The notes below the pieces were generated by a model. The model did not search any database. It was not told where the DNA came from and saw nothing but the letters and a program-made list of their open reading frames with translations. Shown here one piece after another: positions 3,028-64,000 of a stretch of DNA of 64,000 nucleotides (position 1 is the first letter of the stretch; the number at the start of each line of letters is the position of its first letter). The translations under genes and the position numbers were made by a program. This DNA is from Marinomonas hwangdonensis (lineage in GTDB: Bacteria; Pseudomonadota; Gammaproteobacteria; Pseudomonadales; Marinomonadaceae): NCBI RefSeq assembly GCF_003721245.1, contig NZ_RIZG01000006.1, positions 1 to 64,000 on the forward strand, read 5' to 3'.

Positions 3028-3861
3028 ATGGCTGCTCAAATTGGACGCTTAAATACACTAAGTGTCGTGAAAGAAAAAGATTTCGGTGTTTACTTAGACG
3101 CAGGTCAGTTGGGAGAGATCCTACTTCCTAAGCGTTATGTTCCTAAAGGCTTGACCATCGGTCAGGATGTTGAGGTATTTGTTTATCTAGATTCGGACGA
3201 TAAACTCATCGCTACAACTGACTTTCCTAAGGCTCAGGTCGGTGAATTTGCTGCGCTGACGGCGATAGAAGTTAATCAAGTAGGTGCTTTTTTTGACTGG
3301 GGATTACCAAAAGATTTACTAGTCCCTTTTAGTCAGCAAAAAAATCGTGTGGAGGAAGGTGAGACGCACCTGTTGTTCATATACCTAGACAATATTACTA
3401 ATCGGATCGTTGCCACAACGAAGGTAGATGCTTTACTTAACCGTGAAGAAGCGCCTTATAGAGTCGGCGACAAGGTGTCTATTATTATCGGTGATAAGAC
3501 CAATATTGGTTTTAAGTGCGTGATTGATAATCGCTTTTGGGGAGTATTGTTTTTTGAGGATGCGTTCAGGCAACTTCGCAAAGGTGAAAAAACCACTGGG
3601 TTTATTAAGCAGATGCGTGAAGATGGAAAAATTGATTTAAGTCTTCAAGAAGTCGGGTATAAAAAAGTTCGTAACATCTTAGACGATATTATGGACTATC
3701 TTGATGCTCAAGGCGGAGAGTCACCACTAACCGATAAAGCCTCACCAGAAGCCATTTATGCTGTTTTTAAAGTTAGTAAAGCCACCTATAAAAAAGCACT
3801 TGGTGCGCTTTATAAGGAAAAGAAGATTCAGCTGACAAAAGAAAAAATCAGCAAAATTTAG
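3028..3861 (+). CDS. cvfB: S1-like RNA-binding protein, CvfB/YitL family
   Basis: A 277-aa protein of the CvfB family: tandem OB-fold S1-like domains (about residues 5-65, 70-130 and 140-215) and a C-terminal winged helix (about 225-277). Typical sequence landmarks are FGVYLDAG, GEILLPKRYVP, GAFFDWGLPKDLLVPF and the basic C-terminus. CvfB in Staphylococcus binds RNA and affects virulence gene expression. In gamma-proteobacteria the role is unclear, probably post-transcriptional. ATG 3028 has a good GGAG site. The gene ends in a terminator that overlaps the 3' end of convergent panE. Confidence 0.85.
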   Translation: MAAQIGRLNTLSVVKEKDFGVYLDAGQLGEILLPKRYVPKGLTIGQDVEVFVYLDSDDKLIATTDFPKAQVGEFAALTAIEVNQVGAFFDWGLPKDLLVPFSQQKNRVEEGETHLLFIYLDNITNRIVATTKVDALLNREEAPYRVGDKVSIIIGDKTNIGFKCVIDNRFWGVLFFEDAFRQLRKGEKTTGFIKQMREDGKIDLSLQEVGYKKVRNILDDIMDYLDAQGGESPLTDKASPEAIYAVFKVSKATYKKALGALYKEKKIQLTKEKISKI

Positions 3862-3886
3862 TGTTTTTTACACAAGAGTGAATTTC

Positions 3887-3920
3887 AAGCTGCTAAGTGA
3901 TACTTAGCAGCTTTTTTTTG
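3887..3920 (+). terminator. Rho-independent terminator of cvfB, inside the panE 3' end
   Basis: A 12-bp perfect stem (AAGCTGCTAAGT, loop GAT, then complement) is followed by eight T on the plus strand. The stem includes the last codons and stop of panE on the other strand, so one sequence serves as coding DNA and as terminator. Confidence 0.85.
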
Positions 3921-4840
3921 ACTTCTTCTCGCTGTTCTTCAAATTCGACACCATCATAAAGAAGCTGTTGAATAGGAAGTGTGATGGGGCTGTTGTTGAT
4001 TAAAAAACCAGAAATATAGTTGTTTTCTGTTTGGCGTCGAAGTCTTAGGTCTTCATGCATCGATGAACGGTTTAACCGAGTTAACTGAGCAATGGTATTC
4101 ACTCTGTTTCTTAAATTATCTGACGTAAGGTGTTGGCTTTCTTGAATAAAACAAAATTTCGGGTGGGTGAAAATATCAGCTAATTCGTCCAACGTGGCTT
4201 TGATAAGCGGTTTATACTCTTCGTTTAAGAGATCACCATTTTGAATGTTAAAAATGGCCGTTATTGGATTAATGACCGCGTTAACAGCGAGCTTTTCAAG
4301 CATTCTCTGACGTATATTTTTCACTGTTAGGCTTTCTATTGGAAAAACTTTGGTGGCATCAGATGGCGTCCACTCACCAAAAAATGTATCACCGAGACCG
4401 GTATGCTTTATGTGATTGACGTCTACTTTTAACACACCTTCACTGGTGGTACCGGCCCATAAGGTTTGAGAGTTTTGGATGCTTTCTTGTAATATTTCTT
4501 GGGCGCCTAGGCCATTGCAAAGACATGCCACGTCTGCGTCGGGTGTAATGTAATTAGAAACCTGATTAAAGGCATCGGCGAGATCAAAAGATTTTGTACA
4601 CAGAAGCACCTTATCGTATGACTCTGTTAATTCCTTTGCTAAGAAGATTTTTACCTTATGTTTCGAACTGATCACTTCTTGTGTTCCGCCTTCATCAGTG
4701 AATGACTCAAGCGTGATCCTCTTGCCGGGACTTTCTGATCGATAAACTAGATGTACCTTATAGCCTAGCTTTTCAAGTTTACAGGCCCAGAAAAGACCAA
4801 TAGCGCCAGCGCCGATAACCAACCAAGGCGAGTTCTTCAT
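3893..4840 (-). CDS. panE: 2-dehydropantoate 2-reductase family protein (PanE/ApbA)
   Basis: Predicted to reduce ketopantoate to pantoate with NADPH for coenzyme A synthesis. The N-terminal Rossmann fold shows GAGAIG (about residues 10-15), LLCTKSFDL follows for the cofactor-binding region, and the C-terminal helical domain contains KLAVNAVINPITAIF with the catalytic Lys region, plus SSMHEDL. At 315 aa the length is normal. The gene is single, divergent from yajQ with 83 bp between starts. Other ketopantoate-reductase-like enzymes share this fold, so the substrate is inferred from family. Confidence 0.85.
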   Translation of the reverse strand: MKNSPWLVIGAGAIGLFWACKLEKLGYKVHLVYRSESPGKRITLESFTDEGGTQEVISSKHKVKIFLAKELTESYDKVLLCTKSFDLADAFNQVSNYITPDADVACLCNGLGAQEILQESIQNSQTLWAGTTSEGVLKVDVNHIKHTGLGDTFFGEWTPSDATKVFPIESLTVKNIRQRMLEKLAVNAVINPITAIFNIQNGDLLNEEYKPLIKATLDELADIFTHPKFCFIQESQHLTSDNLRNRVNTIAQLTRLNRSSMHEDLRLRRQTENNYISGFLINNSPITLPIQQLLYDGVEFEEQREEVKKKLLSIT

Positions 4841-4923
4841 AATAGGTTTCCATTAGGTGTTTTATTTCAATCCCTGTTATTATCGCTTTAAAATACCTGA
4901 TTGAAAATGCAAAGGAGCATAAA

Positions 4924-5409
4924 ATGCCATCATTTGACGTAGTATCCGAGTTGGATTGGCACGAAGTGAGTAACGCCGTAGACCAAGCGAACAGAGAAAT
5001 TACTACTCGATACGATTTTAAAGGTGTCAAAGCACACTACGAAATTAAAGATAAAACCAGTGTGGTGATGGAGGCAGAGGCAGAACCACAGCTTCGACAA
5101 ATGTCTGATATTCTTAATCAAAAACTGGTAGGGCGTGGCATCGATCTAAAAAGTTTGCAACGTGAAGATGTCATTAAAGGCAATATGCGTGCCTCTCAAG
5201 CCGTTAAAATGAAAGAAGGGCTTGAAACAGACGAAGCTAAAAAGATCGTAAAAATGATCAAAGAAAGCAAAGTTAAGGTTCAGGCTCAGATTCAAGGGGA
5301 TCAACTTCGTGTGACCGGTAAAAAACGCGATGAGCTGCAGCAAGTAATGGCCTTATTGCGCAGTGCTGACTTAGCACAGCCTGTACAGTTTACTAATTTC
5401 AGAGATTAA
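4924..5409 (+). CDS. yajQ: YajQ family nucleotide-binding protein
   Basis: A 161-aa protein of the YajQ (UPF0234) family, nearly full-length identical in layout to known members: starts MPSFDVVSELD, then ITTRYDFKG, KTSVVMEAE and ends with LAQPVQFTNFRD. Two ferredoxin-like domains are expected. Members in Xanthomonas and Pseudomonas bind cyclic di-GMP and affect transcription. Whether this one does is inference. An AAGGAG ribosome site lies 8 bases before the ATG. Confidence 0.95.
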   Translation: MPSFDVVSELDWHEVSNAVDQANREITTRYDFKGVKAHYEIKDKTSVVMEAEAEPQLRQMSDILNQKLVGRGIDLKSLQREDVIKGNMRASQAVKMKEGLETDEAKKIVKMIKESKVKVQAQIQGDQLRVTGKKRDELQQVMALLRSADLAQPVQFTNFRD

Positions 5410-5467
5410 ACTCAGCGGTTTTTTAGCAGAAGCGAGCGTTATCAGCATAGTCAGGTGACGCTCGTGT

Positions 5468-5788
5468 TCATTGATTTTTACGAATAAGGGTGCTTTTCAC
5501 CAATATCCAGCCCTCCTGCTCCAACAAGATTTTCTGCTTCATAAACGCGTCACTGCCCTCATTAAAACTGATTTTACCTTGTGAGTTAACAACCCTATGC
5601 CAAGGCAGCCTTGTGTCATTGGGTAAGTTTTTTAGCAGGTATCCTACTTGCCTTGCGTATCCAGAACGCCCAGCTTGCCGCGCTAACTCCCCATAAGAAA
5701 TAATTTGACCCGCTGGTATGGCATCCAAGAGGATCAGTACCTGCGTTTTAAATTCTTCTATCGCTTGATTAGTCATGTCATCGCCCAT
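5468..5788 (-). CDS. atl: Alkyltransferase-like protein (ATL), MGMT fold without the active cysteine
   Basis: A 106-aa protein corresponding to the C-terminal DNA-binding domain of O6-alkylguanine-DNA alkyltransferases. The helix-turn-helix region (ISYGELARQAGRSGYARQVG) is present. The usual active-site PCHR is PWHR here, with Trp in place of the acceptor Cys, followed by VVNSQGKIS. This is the signature of ATL proteins, which bind alkylated guanine and pass the lesion to nucleotide excision repair instead of repairing it directly. A start at the internal ATG (5776) is also possible. It lies convergent to yajQ and divergent from fxsA. Confidence 0.85.
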   Translation of the reverse strand: MGDDMTNQAIEEFKTQVLILLDAIPAGQIISYGELARQAGRSGYARQVGYLLKNLPNDTRLPWHRVVNSQGKISFNEGSDAFMKQKILLEQEGWILVKSTLIRKNQ

Positions 5789-5841
5789 AAGTAGATGTTA
5801 GGTTTATATATGATTTTGAAGAAGCAATATAGAAGGTGATC

Positions 5842-6330
5842 ATGAGATTTGCTCTTTTGTTATTTATTTTGGTTCCTGTTGTAGAAATGCTGGTGCTCAT
5901 CCAAGTAGGTGGTCAGATTGGCGGCTTAACAACAGTGGCCTTGGTGTTTTTGACTGCCGTAGTGGGGATCGCCCTAATTCGTAAGCAAGGGCTACAAACT
6001 TCGCTAAAAGCGCAAGAGAAGATGCGCCGTGGTGAAATACCTGCGTCTGAAGTAGCGGAGGGGGCAATGTTGATTTTTGCTGGTGTTTGTTTGTTGATTC
6101 CAGGCTTCGTTACCGATGTGTTGGGGGGGGTAATGTTAATTCCTCCCTTAAGAAAATTGCTTGCAGCCGGGTTAATTGTAAAATTCATTAGCTCTTTTGC
6201 CGTGAAGGGGGCTCAGCAAAGTGGCCACTACCATTTCACTTCCCGCTATGACAAATCGTCGAAAGACAAAGGCGACATCATAGAAGGGGAATACGTAAAT
6301 GAAGAAAATGACTTAATAGACAAAAAATAA
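5842..6330 (+). CDS. fxsA: FxsA family inner-membrane protein
   Basis: A membrane protein of the FxsA family: three to four hydrophobic segments in the first 130 residues (FALLLFILVPVVEMLVLIQV; GLTTVALVFLTAVVGIALI; AMLIFAGVCLLIPGFVTDVL) with the conserved PG and a charged hydrophilic tail (KSSKDKGDIIEGEYVNEEN). In E. coli, FxsA overproduction relieves F-plasmid exclusion of phage T7; the cellular function is unknown. ATG 5842 is chosen because AGAAGG lies 5 bases upstream. Codons 94-95 contain a run of eight G (6123-6130), see findings. It is immediately upstream of groSL, as in many gamma-proteobacteria. Confidence 0.9.
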   Translation: MRFALLLFILVPVVEMLVLIQVGGQIGGLTTVALVFLTAVVGIALIRKQGLQTSLKAQEKMRRGEIPASEVAEGAMLIFAGVCLLIPGFVTDVLGGVMLIPPLRKLLAAGLIVKFISSFAVKGAQQSGHYHFTSRYDKSSKDKGDIIEGEYVNEENDLIDKK

Positions 6331-6343
6331 TTGATGTCATGGG

Positions 6344-6370
6344 TTGAAATTGAAAATGTCAGCCGTATAT
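6344..6370 (+). promoter_or_regulatory. Candidate sigma-32 heat-shock promoter of groSL
   Basis: TTGAAA (6344-6349) is separated by 13 bases from CCGTATAT (6363-6370). Against the sigma-32 pattern CTTGAAA-N11..15-CCCCATNT, the -35 core is complete and the -10 element keeps CC, AT and the last T. It lies 87 bases upstream of groS. No CIRCE inverted repeat is seen. Confidence 0.6.
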
Positions 6371-6387
6371 AAAGCGTAAATTCAGAT

Positions 6388-6429
6388 TCTCGCTTAACCG
6401 CGAGATATGTCCTGCCAGGGGATTCCTGG
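6388..6429 (+). other. Two small hairpins in the groSL leader
   Basis: TCTCGC/GCGAGA (6388-6405, 6-base loop) is followed by CCAGG/CCTGG (6415-6429, 5-base loop). Both lie between the candidate heat-shock promoter and the ribosome-binding site GGAGA at 6443-6447. They leave the ribosome site free, so they look more like mRNA-stabilising elements than a thermosensor. Confidence 0.4.
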
Positions 6430-6456
6430 TAATGTTTTAATTGGAGAAAATGATTA

Positions 6457-6747
6457 ATGAATATTCGTCCTTTGCACGATCGTGTCGTTGTTCGCCGTAA
6501 AGAAGAAGAGACAACAACCGCATCTGGTATCGTCTTGCCTGGCTCTGCTACAGAAAAACCTACTCAAGGTGAGGTTTTGGCTGTGGGCACTGGTCGTATT
6601 CAATCTAATGGTGATGTGCAAGCACTTGCTGTTAGCGTTGGTGACACTGTGTTGTTTGGTCAATACTCAGGTCAAACAGTGAAAATCAATGGTGAAGAGC
6701 TACTTATCATGAAAGAAGACGAAATCTACGGCGTTGTTGAAGCCTAG
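6457..6747 (+). CDS. groS: Co-chaperonin GroES
   Basis: A 96-aa co-chaperonin that caps the GroEL ring. The sequence starts [14 protein letters not shown] and contains the mobile loop [18 protein letters not shown] that docks onto GroEL, then [11 protein letters not shown] and a C-terminus [12 protein letters not shown]. The length is typical. A GGAGA site precedes the start by 9 bases. It forms an operon with groL, 58 bp downstream, probably driven by a heat-shock promoter. Confidence 0.98.
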
Positions 6748-6793
6748 TTCGTTTTGTAGTTCATATTCTATTTGTAACATTTAAAACAGTTAA

Positions 6794-8449
<1,656 letters not shown>

Positions 8450-8477
8450 TTTCGCTCTAACTCATTGTTTTAAAAGA

Positions 8478-8506
8478 AACCTCGCTTTATAGCGAGGTTT
8501 TTTTTA
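8478..8506 (+). terminator. Rho-independent terminator of groSL
   Basis: AAACCTCGCT, loop TTAT, AGCGAGGTTT followed by a T run. It is 28 bases behind the groL stop. Confidence 0.9.
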
Positions 8507-8556
8507 GTGTAAAATATTATTGGTAATGATTTTTATTATATTTAATGGGTGATTAG

Positions 8557-9279
8557 ATGGCCTTGTTGTCGCAGCGAGATCTGTTGGAGTTGATAGAAGC
8601 AAAGCGTTTTGGTGTTGAATATCAGCCTATTGTAGAGCTGAGCAGTGGAGATGTGTTTGCCTATGAGGCGCTTTCAAGGTTTAGAATGCCTGATGGGCGA
8701 TTCGTAAGGCCAGACATTGTTTACGCTTCTCTTCATGATAACCCTTTGTTGTTGTTGCAAGTAGAATTGGCACAGAAGAAAATTCAACTAAGCAATCGCA
8801 GTCAAGCTGAAAAAGTGTTTGTTAATCTAGATCAAGACGCTTTTTATGCCTGCGGGCAAGATTTATTGGATAACCCTTTTATTGAATTGATACAACTGGA
8901 GGGAAAAGACAGGGTTGTTGTTGAATTGATAGAAAATTCAGAAATCAGTGATGCTTTAATGAGTTTGTCCATGATTGAGGTTTTTAATCAATTAGGTGTT
9001 CGGACAGCGCTCGATGATTTATGCAATGCTAAGTCCATGCTGTCTGTCGCTGTTCTACAATTAGTAGAGTGGATCAAGCTTGACAGATGTGTGCTGGAAA
9101 AAAGACGAGACGCGAATTTTATGATTTTCGTATCGAAAATTATTGATTTTGCTCATGCCACAGGTAAAAAAGTGGTATTAGAAGGCATTGAGTCCCATGA
9201 TGATTGGTTTTTTGCAAAAATGCTAGGGGTGGATTACGTGCAGGGTTTTTATTACCGAAGTCAGTTTATAACCCGCTGA
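8557..9279 (+). CDS. EAL-domain protein (cyclic di-GMP phosphodiesterase-like)
   Basis: A 240-aa protein that is little more than one EAL domain, with no sensor, GGDEF or membrane segment. The signature YEALSR is at residues 36-41. Residues matching the metal and c-di-GMP ligands can be found: N in VNLDQ, E in VVELIE, DD in ALDDL, K in IKLDR, E in LEGIE and Q in VQGFYY. Loop 6, normally DDFGTG, is DDLCNA, so enzymatic activity is uncertain and a binding or effector role is possible. The gene sits alone between the groSL terminator and fimV, on the same strand. The neighbour suggests a link with polar or pilus functions, which is inference. Confidence 0.8.
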   Translation: MALLSQRDLLELIEAKRFGVEYQPIVELSSGDVFAYEALSRFRMPDGRFVRPDIVYASLHDNPLLLLQVELAQKKIQLSNRSQAEKVFVNLDQDAFYACGQDLLDNPFIELIQLEGKDRVVVELIENSEISDALMSLSMIEVFNQLGVRTALDDLCNAKSMLSVAVLQLVEWIKLDRCVLEKRRDANFMIFVSKIIDFAHATGKKVVLEGIESHDDWFFAKMLGVDYVQGFYYRSQFITR

Positions 9280-9282
9280 ACT

Positions 9283-9313
9283 AAAAAGCATGCTCGCGAG
9301 CTGGCACTTTTTT
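9283..9313 (+). terminator. Possible imperfect terminator after the EAL gene
   Basis: AAAAAG and CTTTTTT flank an interrupted GC-rich inner stem containing the palindrome GCTCGCGAGC. The pairing is imperfect. Confidence 0.35.
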
Positions 9314-9429
9314 CTGTAAGTTGCCTCTTAACTGCAAACCGTTGATTCTAAAGCTATTGATAAATGGCTACCTGTGTAAGATACTAGTTGATAAACACGT
9401 GTTCATTATTTGTAAATAAAGGGAATATT

Positions 9430-11673
9430 ATGCTCAGAAAAACCCTCGTCAGTATTGCTGTGTCAAGCGCACTTTTTGTGTCCAGCAGTTACGCATTGGA
9501 ACTGGGCGAATTGACCTCACAATCAAATATGGGCGAGCCTTACCGTGGTCAAATTGAGCTTAGCGATGTCAGCGGACTGACAGTTGACGATATATTGGTG
9601 CGGTTAGGGAGTGAAAGTGAGTTCCAACAAGCAGGTTTAGCGCCGACTCGGGTCCTATCGCGATTAAGATTTAATGTTGCAAGAGAAAACAACCGACTGG
9701 TTGTTAATGTCTCATCAGAAAGACCGTTGGACGTGGACGAACTGCGTTTTGTTTTAGCGGCTCGGTGGCCAAGTGGTCAAATAGTTAGGGAGTATCAAGC
9801 CCCCCTGAATCAGCCTGTTTTAATTGAGAAGTCACAGGAAGAGGTGGTCCAATCCAGTTCTTTAGAGACTCCCGCGGCTTCGCAAAACTCTGTGTTTCGT
9901 CAGGCAACCATAGCGGCGGAGAGGATGCCTAGTAAGGGGCAATTAAATGTCAACCAAGGCAATACGTTGTGGTCTATTGCGGATCAAAATAAAGCATCCA
10001 ATCAGTTAACCATTTATCAGACGATGATGGCTATTCAGGCGCTTAACAAAGACGCCTTTTATTCAGATAACATCAATTTGCTAAAAGAAGGCGCCGTATT
10101 GCGTCTGCCCACCCAAGAACAAATTGCACTGTTTAATCAATCTATATCGAAAAGCGAGTTCCAGCGTCAACATGATGCATGGATGGCTTTAAGAAATATT
10201 AATCGCGAAAACACCATCGAGCAAGCTCAGCTAAACACCCAAGCACAGGCAAAACAAGCGGCTCAGGCACCAACCAGTGATGATGATAAGCTTACATTGG
10301 CTTCTGGTCAGAGTGCATTACCTGAAAATGCTGCGAGCTCTAATGCTGGAGAAAATCAAAGCGCGGCTATGAATGTTTTGCAAGAGGAGTTAATCGCTTC
10401 TCAAGAGATGCTCGATAAGGAAAAGCGCGAAAAAGACGAATTATCGGGTCAATTGAATGACCTCAATACACAGTTGGAAACACTGCAGCAGCTTATCAGT
10501 CTCAAGGATAAGCAAATGGCTGAACTCCAGCAGTTATTTGCCAGTGCTCAGCAATCCTTGCAAGAGCAGAAAAACACCGTTGACCAGCTCTTAGAAGCTG
10601 ATCAGTTACGTAGAGAAAAAGAGCTAGCAGAAGCGAACTCGTTGACCAATAAAATCTTTGGTAATCCAATTGTCGTTTCCATCGGGGCGGTTGTTCTAAT
10701 ACTCTTAGGTTTCCTTATTGGTCTCGTTATGCGTCGTGCAGGAAAAAAGAAAGAAAAGGAAGCTTCAGCGGATAAGGATGAATTTGATTTGTCCAGTGCG
10801 GCGGTTGCACCAGTCGCGGCGGCCGTTGCTGCTGCCCCTGTGGTTGCCAGTAGTTTTGCCGAAGAGCCTGTAAAAGAAACGGTTGAAGAAAAAGAGCTCC
10901 CTGAAGAAGATCCTTTTGCATTTGATTTTGACAGTCCTGAAGAAGATGACGAGCTAGATAGATTTGGGGCTTTTGATGACGAATTAGAAAGTACCGATTT
11001 TGCTGATTTAACAGACCCTGAAGAGCAAGAGGATTTAGTAAAAGAGTTTGACAGTTCATTAGAAGACGATAAAGACAGTGTTGAAGATCTATTTGACTCT
11101 TTTGATGAGCTTGATGATCTATCAGACGATACGACATTAAAGTCAAATGATGGCGACGAGAAAGATGACTTTGCTGATTTAGATGTTGAGGATGAAGAGG
11201 ATATTCCAACGATGCAGCCTGAGTCTTCACTAGAGGAAGCTCTGTCTGAAGAGAAAAATAACGAGGCTCAATCAGAAGAAGAGTCCTTTGTTTCTAGTTT
11301 GTTGGATGACACGGATCAAGAAGATACTGATGAATCGGCAATCTTTGATGAGTCACCAAATGAGACGTTAGCCAATTCTATTGAAGAAACACTTGCTGAG
11401 GCACAAAGTGCGGAAGACGATTTCGAGATGCCTGAGTTTGGAGAAGCAGAAGCCGCTGAAGATGAAGAAGGCAGTGATGAAGAAGAAGAGTTTGATTTCT
11501 TTGATGCCAGTGGCGATGAAGTTGCAACCAAGTTGGATTTAGCAAGAGCGTATATGGACATGGGTGACGAAGAGGGGGCAAAAGTGATTCTTGATGATGT
11601 CATAGAGTCTGGTAACGAAAAACAAATCAGCGAAGCACAAAATATGATGGAGCGCATGTTCCCAAGTGATTAA
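9430..11673 (+). CDS. fimV: FimV-type polar/peptidoglycan-binding membrane protein
   Basis: A 747-aa FimV protein. Order of parts: signal peptide (about 1-22, ending SSSYA), conserved N-terminal region (LGELTSQSNMGEPYRGQIEL), LysM-like peptidoglycan-binding domain (about 173-225, NQGNTLWSIADQN), Gln-rich coiled coil (about 310-395), one membrane span (about 413-435), a very acidic low-complexity cytoplasmic stretch (about 440-700) and the C-terminal FimV/TPR motif (KLDLARAYMDMGDEEGAK). FimV homologues organise the cell pole, type IV pili and c-di-GMP/cAMP output. ATG 9430 is used, since the signal peptide begins there; an upstream TTG at 9388 would extend it. It overlaps truA by 8 bp. Confidence 0.93.
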   Translation: MLRKTLVSIAVSSALFVSSSYALELGELTSQSNMGEPYRGQIELSDVSGLTVDDILVRLGSESEFQQAGLAPTRVLSRLRFNVARENNRLVVNVSSERPLDVDELRFVLAARWPSGQIVREYQAPLNQPVLIEKSQEEVVQSSSLETPAASQNSVFRQATIAAERMPSKGQLNVNQGNTLWSIADQNKASNQLTIYQTMMAIQALNKDAFYSDNINLLKEGAVLRLPTQEQIALFNQSISKSEFQRQHDAWMALRNINRENTIEQAQLNTQAQAKQAAQAPTSDDDKLTLASGQSALPENAASSNAGENQSAAMNVLQEELIASQEMLDKEKREKDELSGQLNDLNTQLETLQQLISLKDKQMAELQQLFASAQQSLQEQKNTVDQLLEADQLRREKELAEANSLTNKIFGNPIVVSIGAVVLILLGFLIGLVMRRAGKKKEKEASADKDEFDLSSAAVAPVAAAVAAAPVVASSFAEEPVKETVEEKELPEEDPFAFDFDSPEEDDELDRFGAFDDELESTDFADLTDPEEQEDLVKEFDSSLEDDKDSVEDLFDSFDELDDLSDDTTLKSNDGDEKDDFADLDVEDEEDIPTMQPESSLEEALSEEKNNEAQSEEESFVSSLLDDTDQEDTDESAIFDESPNETLANSIEETLAEAQSAEDDFEMPEFGEAEAAEDEEGSDEEEEFDFFDASGDEVATKLDLARAYMDMGDEEGAKVILDDVIESGNEKQISEAQNMMERMFPSD

Positions 11674-61571: not shown

Positions 61572-62978
61572 ATGCTATTTAAACACTTGCCCGATGAGAT
61601 ATTTCAGGCTCTAAGTGGTTCAAATAAGATGCTGATCGAAGCGGTGCTTTTTGACCTAGCAGAGGTTTTTTATGATCATGCTGAAGACCCAATAAAAGAC
61701 AAGTCGACCATCATTGAATCAATTGAAGACACCTTGCACAAGTTGGACACAATTGCATGGAACGATGAGCATAAAGAGTCTTTTGAGTCACCAAAAACCA
61801 TTCACGATTACGCATTACGCATTTATCATCGGTTGGTGAATACTGGGTGGTTAGTAGAAGAGCAAGAGCTGTATCGTGTCAGTGTTTTAATGACTCCGCA
61901 GATTTCCATGCTACTGCGTTCTTTGGTCGAAATTAGCCGCCACGGTAAGCGCAACTATGGCGCAACGGTATTGAGCATTCTTAGTAACCTTGAAGCCGTG
62001 GCCAAAAATCCGCAAGAGCGGGGCGTTATCTTGCGACAGTCAGCAGAAGCCTCAAGAGACTTTTCGGCCCATTTGAATCAAATTTTGCTGGGCATTCGCA
62101 GCTTACAAAGAGAGCTGTTTGCGAGTCGTGACCCTAAAGCAATTGTTGCTGGTTTCTTTGATTTGTTTGTCGAGGGAATACTGATCGCTGACTATAAAAC
62201 CATTAAAACGAGCAACAATCCTTTTCGATTTCGACGCCAGATTCTTGAGTTGACACAAGAGTTCTTGTCTAACCCAGACATTATGAAGCAGGTGACTCAA
62301 TGTTACGTTGATCAACAATTGATAACCGTTACGCAAGCTCAAGCCATGGTTGAAAAGGATTGTCGTGACATCATTCAAACCTTTAGTAATATTGAGCAAC
62401 GCTTAGAGCGCATTGATGAATACCGTTATCGATTAGAAAAACGAGCTGCTGACACTGCCCGTTACATGGACAGCTCGCGCCCTGGTTTGGCCAATAAGAT
62501 CGCCGGAATAATTGCAGATGTGGCTAAATTCGAAAAGCTGCCCATTTTGAAACAAGTTGTGGGTGCACGTTTTGTCGGTATGGCGTCAGCCGCACAACCG
62601 ACAAGACGCCGTGAACCACCACCACCGCGAGTCATGACACCGATAGAAGTGTCAGAAGAAGCCATCAAGATACGCGATCAACAACGCCGCTTTCATGAAG
62701 CAAGACAGGTCACTATTCCTAAGATGCAAAGCTATTTAGAAAAGCAAATGGCAGCGGAAAACAGCAAACATATTTTAGATTTTACCATTGAGTCGGTTGA
62801 AGACTTCGTTTGCTTTGATCACTTGCGCTATGTTGGCTCCCTGGGCGTCAGTGCGAAAAAAATTGAGGATTTATTCGAAGTGCATTTCACCAACCAGTAT
62901 TTAGACGTGCATGACTTTGTTGAATGTCGTGAATTTAGTGTGATACGCAGGAGCAAAGCGCCATGCTTAGAGAATTAA
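61572..62978 (+). CDS. jetA: Wadjet/Mks kleisin-like subunit JetA (MksF-type)
   Basis: A 468-aa protein with the size and features of JetA of Wadjet systems outside type I: an N-terminal winged-helix and helical part (LFKHLPDEIFQALSG, YALRIYHRLVNTGWLVEEQ), a long coiled middle (about 120-330), a Pro-rich linker (RREPPPPRVM, about 357-366), and a C-terminal winged helix. It does not look like DUF3375 of type I. It should bridge the SMC heads of JetC, as kleisins do. GGAG lies 8 bases upstream. It overlaps jetB by 16 bp. Assigned by family memory and by the operon, not by search. Confidence 0.8.
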   Translation: MLFKHLPDEIFQALSGSNKMLIEAVLFDLAEVFYDHAEDPIKDKSTIIESIEDTLHKLDTIAWNDEHKESFESPKTIHDYALRIYHRLVNTGWLVEEQELYRVSVLMTPQISMLLRSLVEISRHGKRNYGATVLSILSNLEAVAKNPQERGVILRQSAEASRDFSAHLNQILLGIRSLQRELFASRDPKAIVAGFFDLFVEGILIADYKTIKTSNNPFRFRRQILELTQEFLSNPDIMKQVTQCYVDQQLITVTQAQAMVEKDCRDIIQTFSNIEQRLERIDEYRYRLEKRAADTARYMDSSRPGLANKIAGIIADVAKFEKLPILKQVVGARFVGMASAAQPTRRREPPPPRVMTPIEVSEEAIKIRDQQRRFHEARQVTIPKMQSYLEKQMAAENSKHILDFTIESVEDFVCFDHLRYVGSLGVSAKKIEDLFEVHFTNQYLDVHDFVECREFSVIRRSKAPCLEN

Positions 62979-63604
62979 AAAAAGTCGTTGAAGAGTCTGG
63001 GAAAGACGCACAAGAGTTTCAGCAGACGGCAAACTTCATCCTTGCTAACCAATTTGCCAGCGCCTATAAGCACGGACAGCGTAAACATTATCTACTTATT
63101 GAGTCTTATCAAGAGTATTTTGAGCGCTTATTTGATGCCTTAGGAATGACGCTTTATATCAATGAAAATGAGCGCCTTGCGGGTGTGTTACCCATTCAAA
63201 AAGAAGCGTTTGTACGCTTAAAAACCGATGAAACCTTATTTTTACTCGTATTGCGACAGATCTATGAAGAAAAAATAGAGAATTTCGAGGTGGACAACGG
63301 TTTTGTTGCTACCAACACTCACACTATTTTGGATAGATTTGTGCAGTTGGTAAAAAGAGAAATCCCGAATGAAACTCGCTTTAAAGATATACTGGCGTTG
63401 TTCAGCCGTCACGGCATTATTATTCGTGGTAAGTCTTATGAAGAAGACAGTAAAAATTTGATGATTAACATTACTCCTGTGGTGAGGTTAATTGTGACAG
63501 AAGCTTACTTGCGACAGTTAGAGTCTTTCAATGGGGCCGATCCAGACGAAGATGACATGGCTGAATTGACTACAGAGACAGAAAACACAGGCACGCAGGA
63601 ATAG
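62963..63604 (+). CDS. jetB: Wadjet/Mks KITE-like subunit JetB (DUF4194, MksE-type)
   Basis: A 213-aa protein of the DUF4194 family, with FILANQFASAYKHGQ and LLIESYQEYFERLFDALG near the N-terminus, RLAGVLPIQ, and a C-terminal acidic tail (DPDEDDMAEL). It should form the KITE dimer that binds the kleisin. It begins inside jetA (16-bp overlap) and ends 9 bp before jetC. Confidence 0.85.
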   Translation: MLRELKKVVEESGKDAQEFQQTANFILANQFASAYKHGQRKHYLLIESYQEYFERLFDALGMTLYINENERLAGVLPIQKEAFVRLKTDETLFLLVLRQIYEEKIENFEVDNGFVATNTHTILDRFVQLVKREIPNETRFKDILALFSRHGIIIRGKSYEEDSKNLMINITPVVRLIVTEAYLRQLESFNGADPDEDDMAELTTETENTGTQE

Positions 63605-63613
63605 GACCAAAAT

Positions 63614-64000
63614 ATGAAAAAGTTAAATCGAATCGTATTAGTCAATTGGTACCTGCTGGGTGCGGAAGACATCAATATTCGCGGCAATACCGCTATTATC
63701 GGTCCCACTGGATCGGGTAAATCGTCGTTACTGGACGCCATCCAAACCGTTTTGACGGGTGCCAGTAAACGCCACCTTAACTACAATGCCAGCGCGAACG
63801 ATGGTAAAGCCAGTGGCCGTAGTATCCGCTCTTACATTTTAGGGATGATAGATTCTGGTCAAGCCAACGCTAAAATATTTGGCACTCAGCCAAGACAAGA
63901 CGCTGTCAGTTATCTTGCTTTGGTGTTTGAAGACAGTGTGACCGGAAACGAATCCAGTGTTGGCTTAGCATTAAGTGCGTCTCTGGCTTCTCCAGAAGAA
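63614..64000 (+). CDS. jetC: Wadjet/Mks SMC ATPase JetC (MksB-type), N-terminal part only
   Basis: 129 codons before the window ends. The sequence starts MKKLNRIVLVNWYLLGAEDI; Walker A is GPTGSGKSS at residues 30-38, followed by LLDAIQTVLTGASKRHLNYNA and later GRSIRSYILGM, the pattern of MukB/MksB/JetC SMC heads. AGGA lies 7 bases before the ATG. The coiled-coil arms and C-terminal head are beyond the window. The gene is 9 bp from jetB, so it is the third gene of the operon. Confidence 0.9.
   Translation, partial: MKKLNRIVLVNWYLLGAEDINIRGNTAIIGPTGSGKSSLLDAIQTVLTGASKRHLNYNASANDGKASGRSIRSYILGMIDSGQANAKIFGTQPRQDAVSYLALVFEDSVTGNESSVGLALSASLASPEE

Follow-up and report, generated by a model that had tools for sequence, protein, structure and literature searches.

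A JetABC operon without a JetD nuclease as the probable sole known condensin of Marinomonas

Introduction

Does the Wadjet/MksBEF-type operon of Marinomonas hwangdonensis serve in plasmid defence or in chromosome organisation? The operon, jetA-jetB-jetC, encodes a predicted structural maintenance of chromosomes (SMC) complex and lies at the right edge of the stretch of DNA analysed here (the window), which comprises the first 64,000 bases of the 224,958-base contig NZ_RIZG01000006.1 (assembly GCF_003721245.1) in a genome of 3.455 Mb given as 100% complete. An earlier note, made from the window sequence alone, recognised the operon type and proposed that a following jetD gene would decide between defence and condensin; both points stood, whereas its further statement that the operon is not type I did not. 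The main interest is invisible in the window: the searches detected no further condensin, either in this genome or, as judged by ScpA and MukB, in the genus. Our reading is that the JetD-less JetABC most likely acts as a condensin, the only one of a known type found in Marinomonas and in the Marinobacterium/Nitrincola family, and that it very probably replaced SMC-ScpAB; we give this reading a probability of about 0.83.

Operon organization and family assignment

The operon consists of the following features:

61572..62978, + strand: jetA, mksF-like kleisin, 468 amino acids (aa); PF18982, PADLOC JetA1
62963..63604, + strand: jetB, mksE-like KITE subunit, 213 aa; PF13835 (DUF4194), JetB1
63614..64000 in the window, + strand, gene end at contig position 67030: jetC, mksB-like SMC ATPase (start), 1138 aa in total

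The coupled arrangement described in the earlier note, with a 16-bp overlap between jetA and jetB and a 9-bp gap between jetB and jetC, was confirmed to the exact coordinates, and jetC read past the window edge as a complete open reading frame (ORF) with its stop at position 67030. The two profiles suggested for checking also matched, with JetA hitting PF18982 (E 1.3e-79) and JetB hitting PF13835 (E 1.4e-20). The SMC-type assignment of jetC held as well, with the first 129 aa matching AAA_29 (E 2e-19) and PADLOC JetC1 (E 1.9e-70), the whole ORF matching AAA_29 and SbcC_Walker_B above cut-off, and an SMC_hinge match lying slightly below its cut-off (21.5 vs. 22.5 bits). The type assignment had to be reversed: the top PADLOC models were JetA1 (PDLC00443, DUF5716; E 3.9e-227, residues 1–461), JetB1 (E 1.3e-108), and JetC1, all type I, and the same was true of one relative from a second family of the order (f37, see below). 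The Pfam MksE profile (PF21980) gave 16.8 bits with the window JetB, under its 27-bit cut-off, and 28.5 bits with one f37 JetB, over it, and the MukB N-terminal domain (PF04310) scored 17.7 bits against the window part of jetC, under the cut-off of 23. The operon thus encodes a type I Wadjet-like JetABC (MksFEB) complex without the JetD nuclease, its kleisin, KITE, and SMC subunits being co-encoded without a nuclease as in an MksBEF-type condensin.

Predicted structures pointed in the same direction. The AlphaFold2 model of JetB (predicted local distance difference test score, pLDDT, 76.3) found its top fold matches in the JetABC structures of E. coli and P. aeruginosa PA14, in chains that carry no subunit label in the search output and are taken as JetB, followed by MukE. 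The JetA model was of low confidence (mean pLDDT 66.7), and its five best Foldseek matches fell on Wadjet and MukBEF complexes, in unlabelled chains likewise taken as the kleisins, with template modelling (TM) scores of just 0.12–0.22; we treat this match as only supportive. Neither phmmer nor profile searches of the PDB with JetA and JetB gave a match, nor did queries with the corresponding proteins of JetD-bearing relatives, which were aimed at naming the matched chains.

Absence of JetD at the locus and in the genome

Outside the window, 11 bp after jetC, begins a bolA-like gene that scores 108 bits against the BolA equivalog (cut-off 137); past it lie a STAS-like ORF and a response-regulator ORF, both named by eye. 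JetD_C (PF09983) and DUF3322 (PF11795) had no matches in the M. hwangdonensis genome, with the Corynebacterium glutamicum control positive in each search. By the jetD test of the earlier note, the outcome is MksBEF rather than defence.

Among the 48 genomes of the genus, JetD_C was found in one (G035), directly after a second jetABC, the JetC of which shares 27% identity with the window JetC. This second operon (locus L064, G035:C9:1470000-1486000, positions 4111–10858), followed by JetD with JetD_C over cut-off and carried besides the core jetABC, is likely a true Wadjet sharing a cell with the nuclease-less jetABC. In other families of the order, six further operons with JetC at 27–29% identity carry JetD adjoining jetC, and JetD_C was over cut-off in all seven JetD-bearing operons (these six and that of G035). 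A JetD profile built from the seven was run against 78 named loci, which represent the best 80 places of at least 289 relatives, and found none (best E 0.051), with at least 2 kb of downstream sequence in 75 of the 78 and at least 5 kb in 69. The searches thus detect JetD where it is present in the order, and the Marinomonas operon has none. Two more loci of the 27–29% band, L065 and L072, lack JetD; in L072, a shortened JetC stops 0.8 kb before the contig end.

We also considered the IFDR motif at the JetB N-terminus, which JetD contacts (PMC10586767, excerpt), as a marker of JetD, expecting it to be kept in JetD-bearing operons and lost in the Marinomonas type. Within the first 40 residues, it was absent from all eight JetBs of the 27–29% group and from the JetD-less ones examined; being absent from both groups, it does not discriminate and was set aside.

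The operon could still be a Wadjet defence, its nuclease being encoded elsewhere, escaping recognition, or coming from a different family, with JetABC sensing small circular DNA and passing it to the nuclease in trans. This would fit with subunits closest to type I Wadjet models and with the occurrence of jetABC with jetD in the same order. However, the M. hwangdonensis genome yielded neither JetD_C nor DUF3322, the single JetD_C of the genus belongs to another operon, the next genes (bolA-like, STAS-like, and response regulator, the last two named by eye) look unrelated, and jetABC is present in every genus genome under strong constraint rather than patchily. We therefore regard a defence function as unlikely.

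Other condensins in the genome and genus

ScpA (PF02616) was found in none of the 48 genus genomes, whereas 9 of 14 control genomes were positive, and MukB over cut-off was likewise found in none of the 48, with the E. coli control positive. Weak MukB matches in five genus genomes fell below cut-off in ORFs of 526–527 aa, and one in an f37 genome lay in a 255-aa ORF; these were rejected. Among the ORFs matching SMC_N over cut-off in the M. hwangdonensis genome are some with the lengths of RecF (381 aa) and RecN (564 aa), names given on size alone; the only matching ORFs longer than 1000 aa were jetC and one SbcC-like ORF. The latter, a 1237-aa SMC-resembling candidate, was discarded as SbcC-like, having scored 715 bits against the SbcC equivalog (cut-off 750). 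JetABC is thus the only complex of known condensin type found.

These searches bear on a second alternative, in which JetABC is an accessory condensin, like MksBEF in Pseudomonas aeruginosa, beside an SMC-type complex that escaped detection. Coexistence of this kind has a parallel in the order, where a separate group of JetC-like proteins of about 1210 aa (one member typed as JetC1) occurs together with ScpA. Against this, ScpA and MukB over cut-off were missing from 48 of 48 genomes with working controls, and no SMC-sized ORF other than jetC and the sbcC-like one was found among the SMC_N matches of the M. hwangdonensis genome, so an accessory role seems improbable.

Conservation, neighbourhood, and constraint

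A JetC orthologue was present in all 48 genus genomes at 76–92% identity, and a family search returned the same 48. In 47 of them, jetC was recovered as a single match spanning at least residues 1–1130 of 1138. The remaining genome, G022 (locus L174, G022:C17, 6816–10254), has jetC in three pieces owing to two frameshifts, with jetA, jetB, and cbiX intact.

Among the named loci, 36 showed 76–91% JetC identity, all from Marinomonas or Maribrevibacterium, and 42 showed 39–41%, the matches listed being from Marinobacterium, Nitrincola, Neptunomonas, Neptuniibacter, Amphritea, Motiliproteus, Pontibacterium, Pokkaliibacter, an Osedax symbiont, and uncultured kin. Judging from these identities, f37, whose JetC lies at 39–41%, appears to correspond to the Marinobacterium/Nitrincola band. 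The order jetA-jetB-jetC was kept in 77 of the 78 loci. The exception, L113, owes its odd gene order to an inverted repeat at the end of a contig, in which cbiX, jetA, jetB, and part of jetC are duplicated, and was read as an assembly artefact.

The earlier note placed the operon after cbiX with no sign of an island, and the neighbourhood agrees with this. Upstream lies a cbiX-like gene, whose best NCBIfam match reaches 61 bits against a cut-off of 120; counted by presence, its orthologue is in all 35 named genus loci of 16–19 kb. Downstream, bolA follows jetC in all 35 genus loci examined by tblastn (of the 48 genomes), and 34 of them also have a STAS match. In nine f37 loci, none with JetD by profile, bolA was near jetC in six, so that the placement of the operon near bolA is probably ancestral.

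Since synonymous sites were saturated in all genes (median proportion of synonymous differences 0.81–0.89), non-synonymous divergence (dN) was compared rather than dN/dS. Against 25 to 35 named relatives per gene, median dN was 0.099 for jetA, 0.095 for jetB, and 0.087 for jetC; of nine neighbouring genes, most named by eye, only ttcA was lower (0.063), and the other eight ranged from 0.151 to 0.284. All 34 JetC sequences that were checked, drawn from both families, contain the Walker A, SGGE, and Walker B strings, although the Walker B count is partly circular, as the string FDEAFNK was one of two patterns used to fetch 32 of the 34. This conservation and slow protein change is the behaviour of a housekeeping gene. 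Of 72,556 plasmid records, 11 gave a match, as did 2 of 50,697 phage records, all at 22–34% identity; the JetC clade is not plasmid- or phage-borne in the collections searched.

A Wadjet in decay, already without jetD and heading for loss, would account for the frameshifted jetC of G022. However, the 47 genomes with one near-full match, the ATPase strings in 34 of 34 sequences (with the Walker B reservation), and protein change slower than in eight of nine neighbouring genes make decay very improbable.

Order-wide pattern and history

In an evenly drawn sample of 390 genomes of the order, ScpA was present in 341. Full-length JetC at 39% identity or more was confined to two groups, the window genus (18 of 18 sampled) and f37 (16 genomes), and none of these 34 carriers had ScpA. 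G174, a seventeenth f37 genome, carries ScpA and gave no JetC match, and MukB over cut-off was found in none of the 17. When only the 351 genomes with at least 90% completeness and at most 5% contamination were considered, ScpA was absent from 34 of 34 JetC carriers vs. 6 of 317 others (Fisher p 1.7e-41, shared ancestry ignored).

Besides the 34 carriers, 15 genomes of the sample lack ScpA, 6 of them of high quality. The family of 12 of these 15 was not recorded, and further f37 members may be among them, although the order of the genome handles argues against it. All eight genomes with JetC at 27–29% identity have ScpA.

The two families came out as sisters (Shimodaira–Hasegawa-like approximate likelihood ratio test, SH-aLRT, 99) in a tree built from 57 JetC rows, separate from both the eight-row 27–29% group (support 83) and a group made up mostly of 1210-aa proteins; the tree carries SH-aLRT support only and an arbitrary root, and several rows of the outside groups sit on long branches. 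Within the 27–29% band, L065 (3544–9720) holds a JetD-less jetABC, followed by EpmC, in a ScpA-bearing genome. This possible intermediate state suggests that JetD loss can come before SMC loss.

The group of 1210–1230-aa matches was considered as SbcC and this was rejected, as the one member typed (L082) proved to be JetC1, with DUF4194 encoded next to it, and 14 further loci have an adjoining JetB match. These 14 loci (L162–L170, L173, and L176–L179) form a separate group encoding JetC-like proteins of 1190–1230 aa, some with JetD and some without, and all of their genomes have ScpA except that of L173. L170 is followed by JetD with JetD_C over cut-off, whereas L162 and L164 are followed by pseudouridine synthase and uracil phosphoribosyltransferase rather than JetD. 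L173 (G396, f37; 3796–10864) is a second mks-like operon besides the core JetABC, and the ORF after it matched JetD_C at a borderline 21.1 bits (cut-off 22).

Proposed function and its meaning

We infer the condensin role of JetABC from the absence of other condensins together with the constraint. By analogy with its Wadjet and MukBEF relatives, from which the mechanistic model is taken (PMC10586767, excerpt), two JetC motors, joined through JetA and bearing JetB, would hydrolyse ATP to extrude DNA loops. Without JetD, a finished loop would have no cutting consequence, leaving the motor free to run on the chromosome, where ATP-driven loop extrusion may compact the DNA and help sisters separate.

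Several points weigh against this interpretation. The excerpt of PMC7083940 reports that MksBEFG of C. glutamicum, which has the nuclease, does not contribute to chromosome folding, so a chromosome role does not follow from family alone. The frameshifts in the G022 jetC are either sequencing errors or genuine; if genuine, the gene is not essential in that genome. The contrast between 34 and 317 genomes is phylogenetically non-independent and may reflect one or two events. The searches covered SMC itself in the M. hwangdonensis genome, ScpA and MukB in the other genomes, and JetD genome-wide in the genus, and a condensin of unknown type could have escaped them.

As to history, there is perhaps an even chance that a Wadjet plasmid defence lost its nuclease in the ancestor of Marinomonas and the Marinobacterium–Nitrincola family, joined chromosome maintenance near bolA, and fully displaced SMC-ScpAB. 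If true, the standard bacterial condensin would have been replaced here separately from its replacement by MukBEF, and what began as an immune system would have become, by domestication, a core machine of the chromosome. A type I JetABC would apparently be acting on a chromosome with no other known condensin to mask its effect, in genera with many named strains, which makes the question experimentally tractable. The operon also carries a warning that jetABC matches in defence scans are not always defence, since PDLC00443 fits nuclease-less JetAs far better (752 and 731 bits for the two tested) than a JetA of the same genus whose operon includes JetD (202 bits).

Comparison with known systems

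According to the excerpts available, MksBEF typically occurs with SMC-ScpAB or MukBEF (PMC7485682) and is often combined with them (review, PMC4255302), and some bacteria encode only MukBEF and MksBEF proteins (PMC10406323). In the sources surveyed, partly as excerpts, we found no lineage described with JetABC/MksBEF as its only condensin (the founding MksBEF paper, outside the survey, may list some), no report of this situation in Marinomonas, and no paper pairing Marinomonas with Wadjet.

The window operon resembles Wadjet type I in encoding JetA (DUF5716), JetB (DUF4194), and the SMC protein JetC in the same gene order, and in that the best solved matches of its JetB model are in JetABC structures. 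It differs in having no JetD beside it or matched elsewhere in the genome and in being core in the genus rather than patchy; its JetC is just 27–29% identical to those of the JetD-bearing operons of the same order. Like P. aeruginosa MksBEF, the complex is JetD-less and MukBEF-like; however, MksBEF coexists there with SMC-ScpAB (PMC7485682, excerpt), whereas neither SMC-ScpAB nor MukBEF was found in the window genome. The proposed role, chromosome folding and segregation, is that of SMC-ScpAB, although the protein families differ and ScpA is missing from 48 of 48 genus genomes. The complex differs from MukBEF in that the MukB profile stayed below cut-off in 48 genus and 17 f37 genomes and in that its JetC is of the JetC1 type. 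MukE is nonetheless among the nearest solved folds to the window JetB, and, like enterobacterial MukBEF (PMC10586767, excerpt), JetABC is a diverged SMC complex that has apparently replaced SMC-ScpAB lineage-wide.
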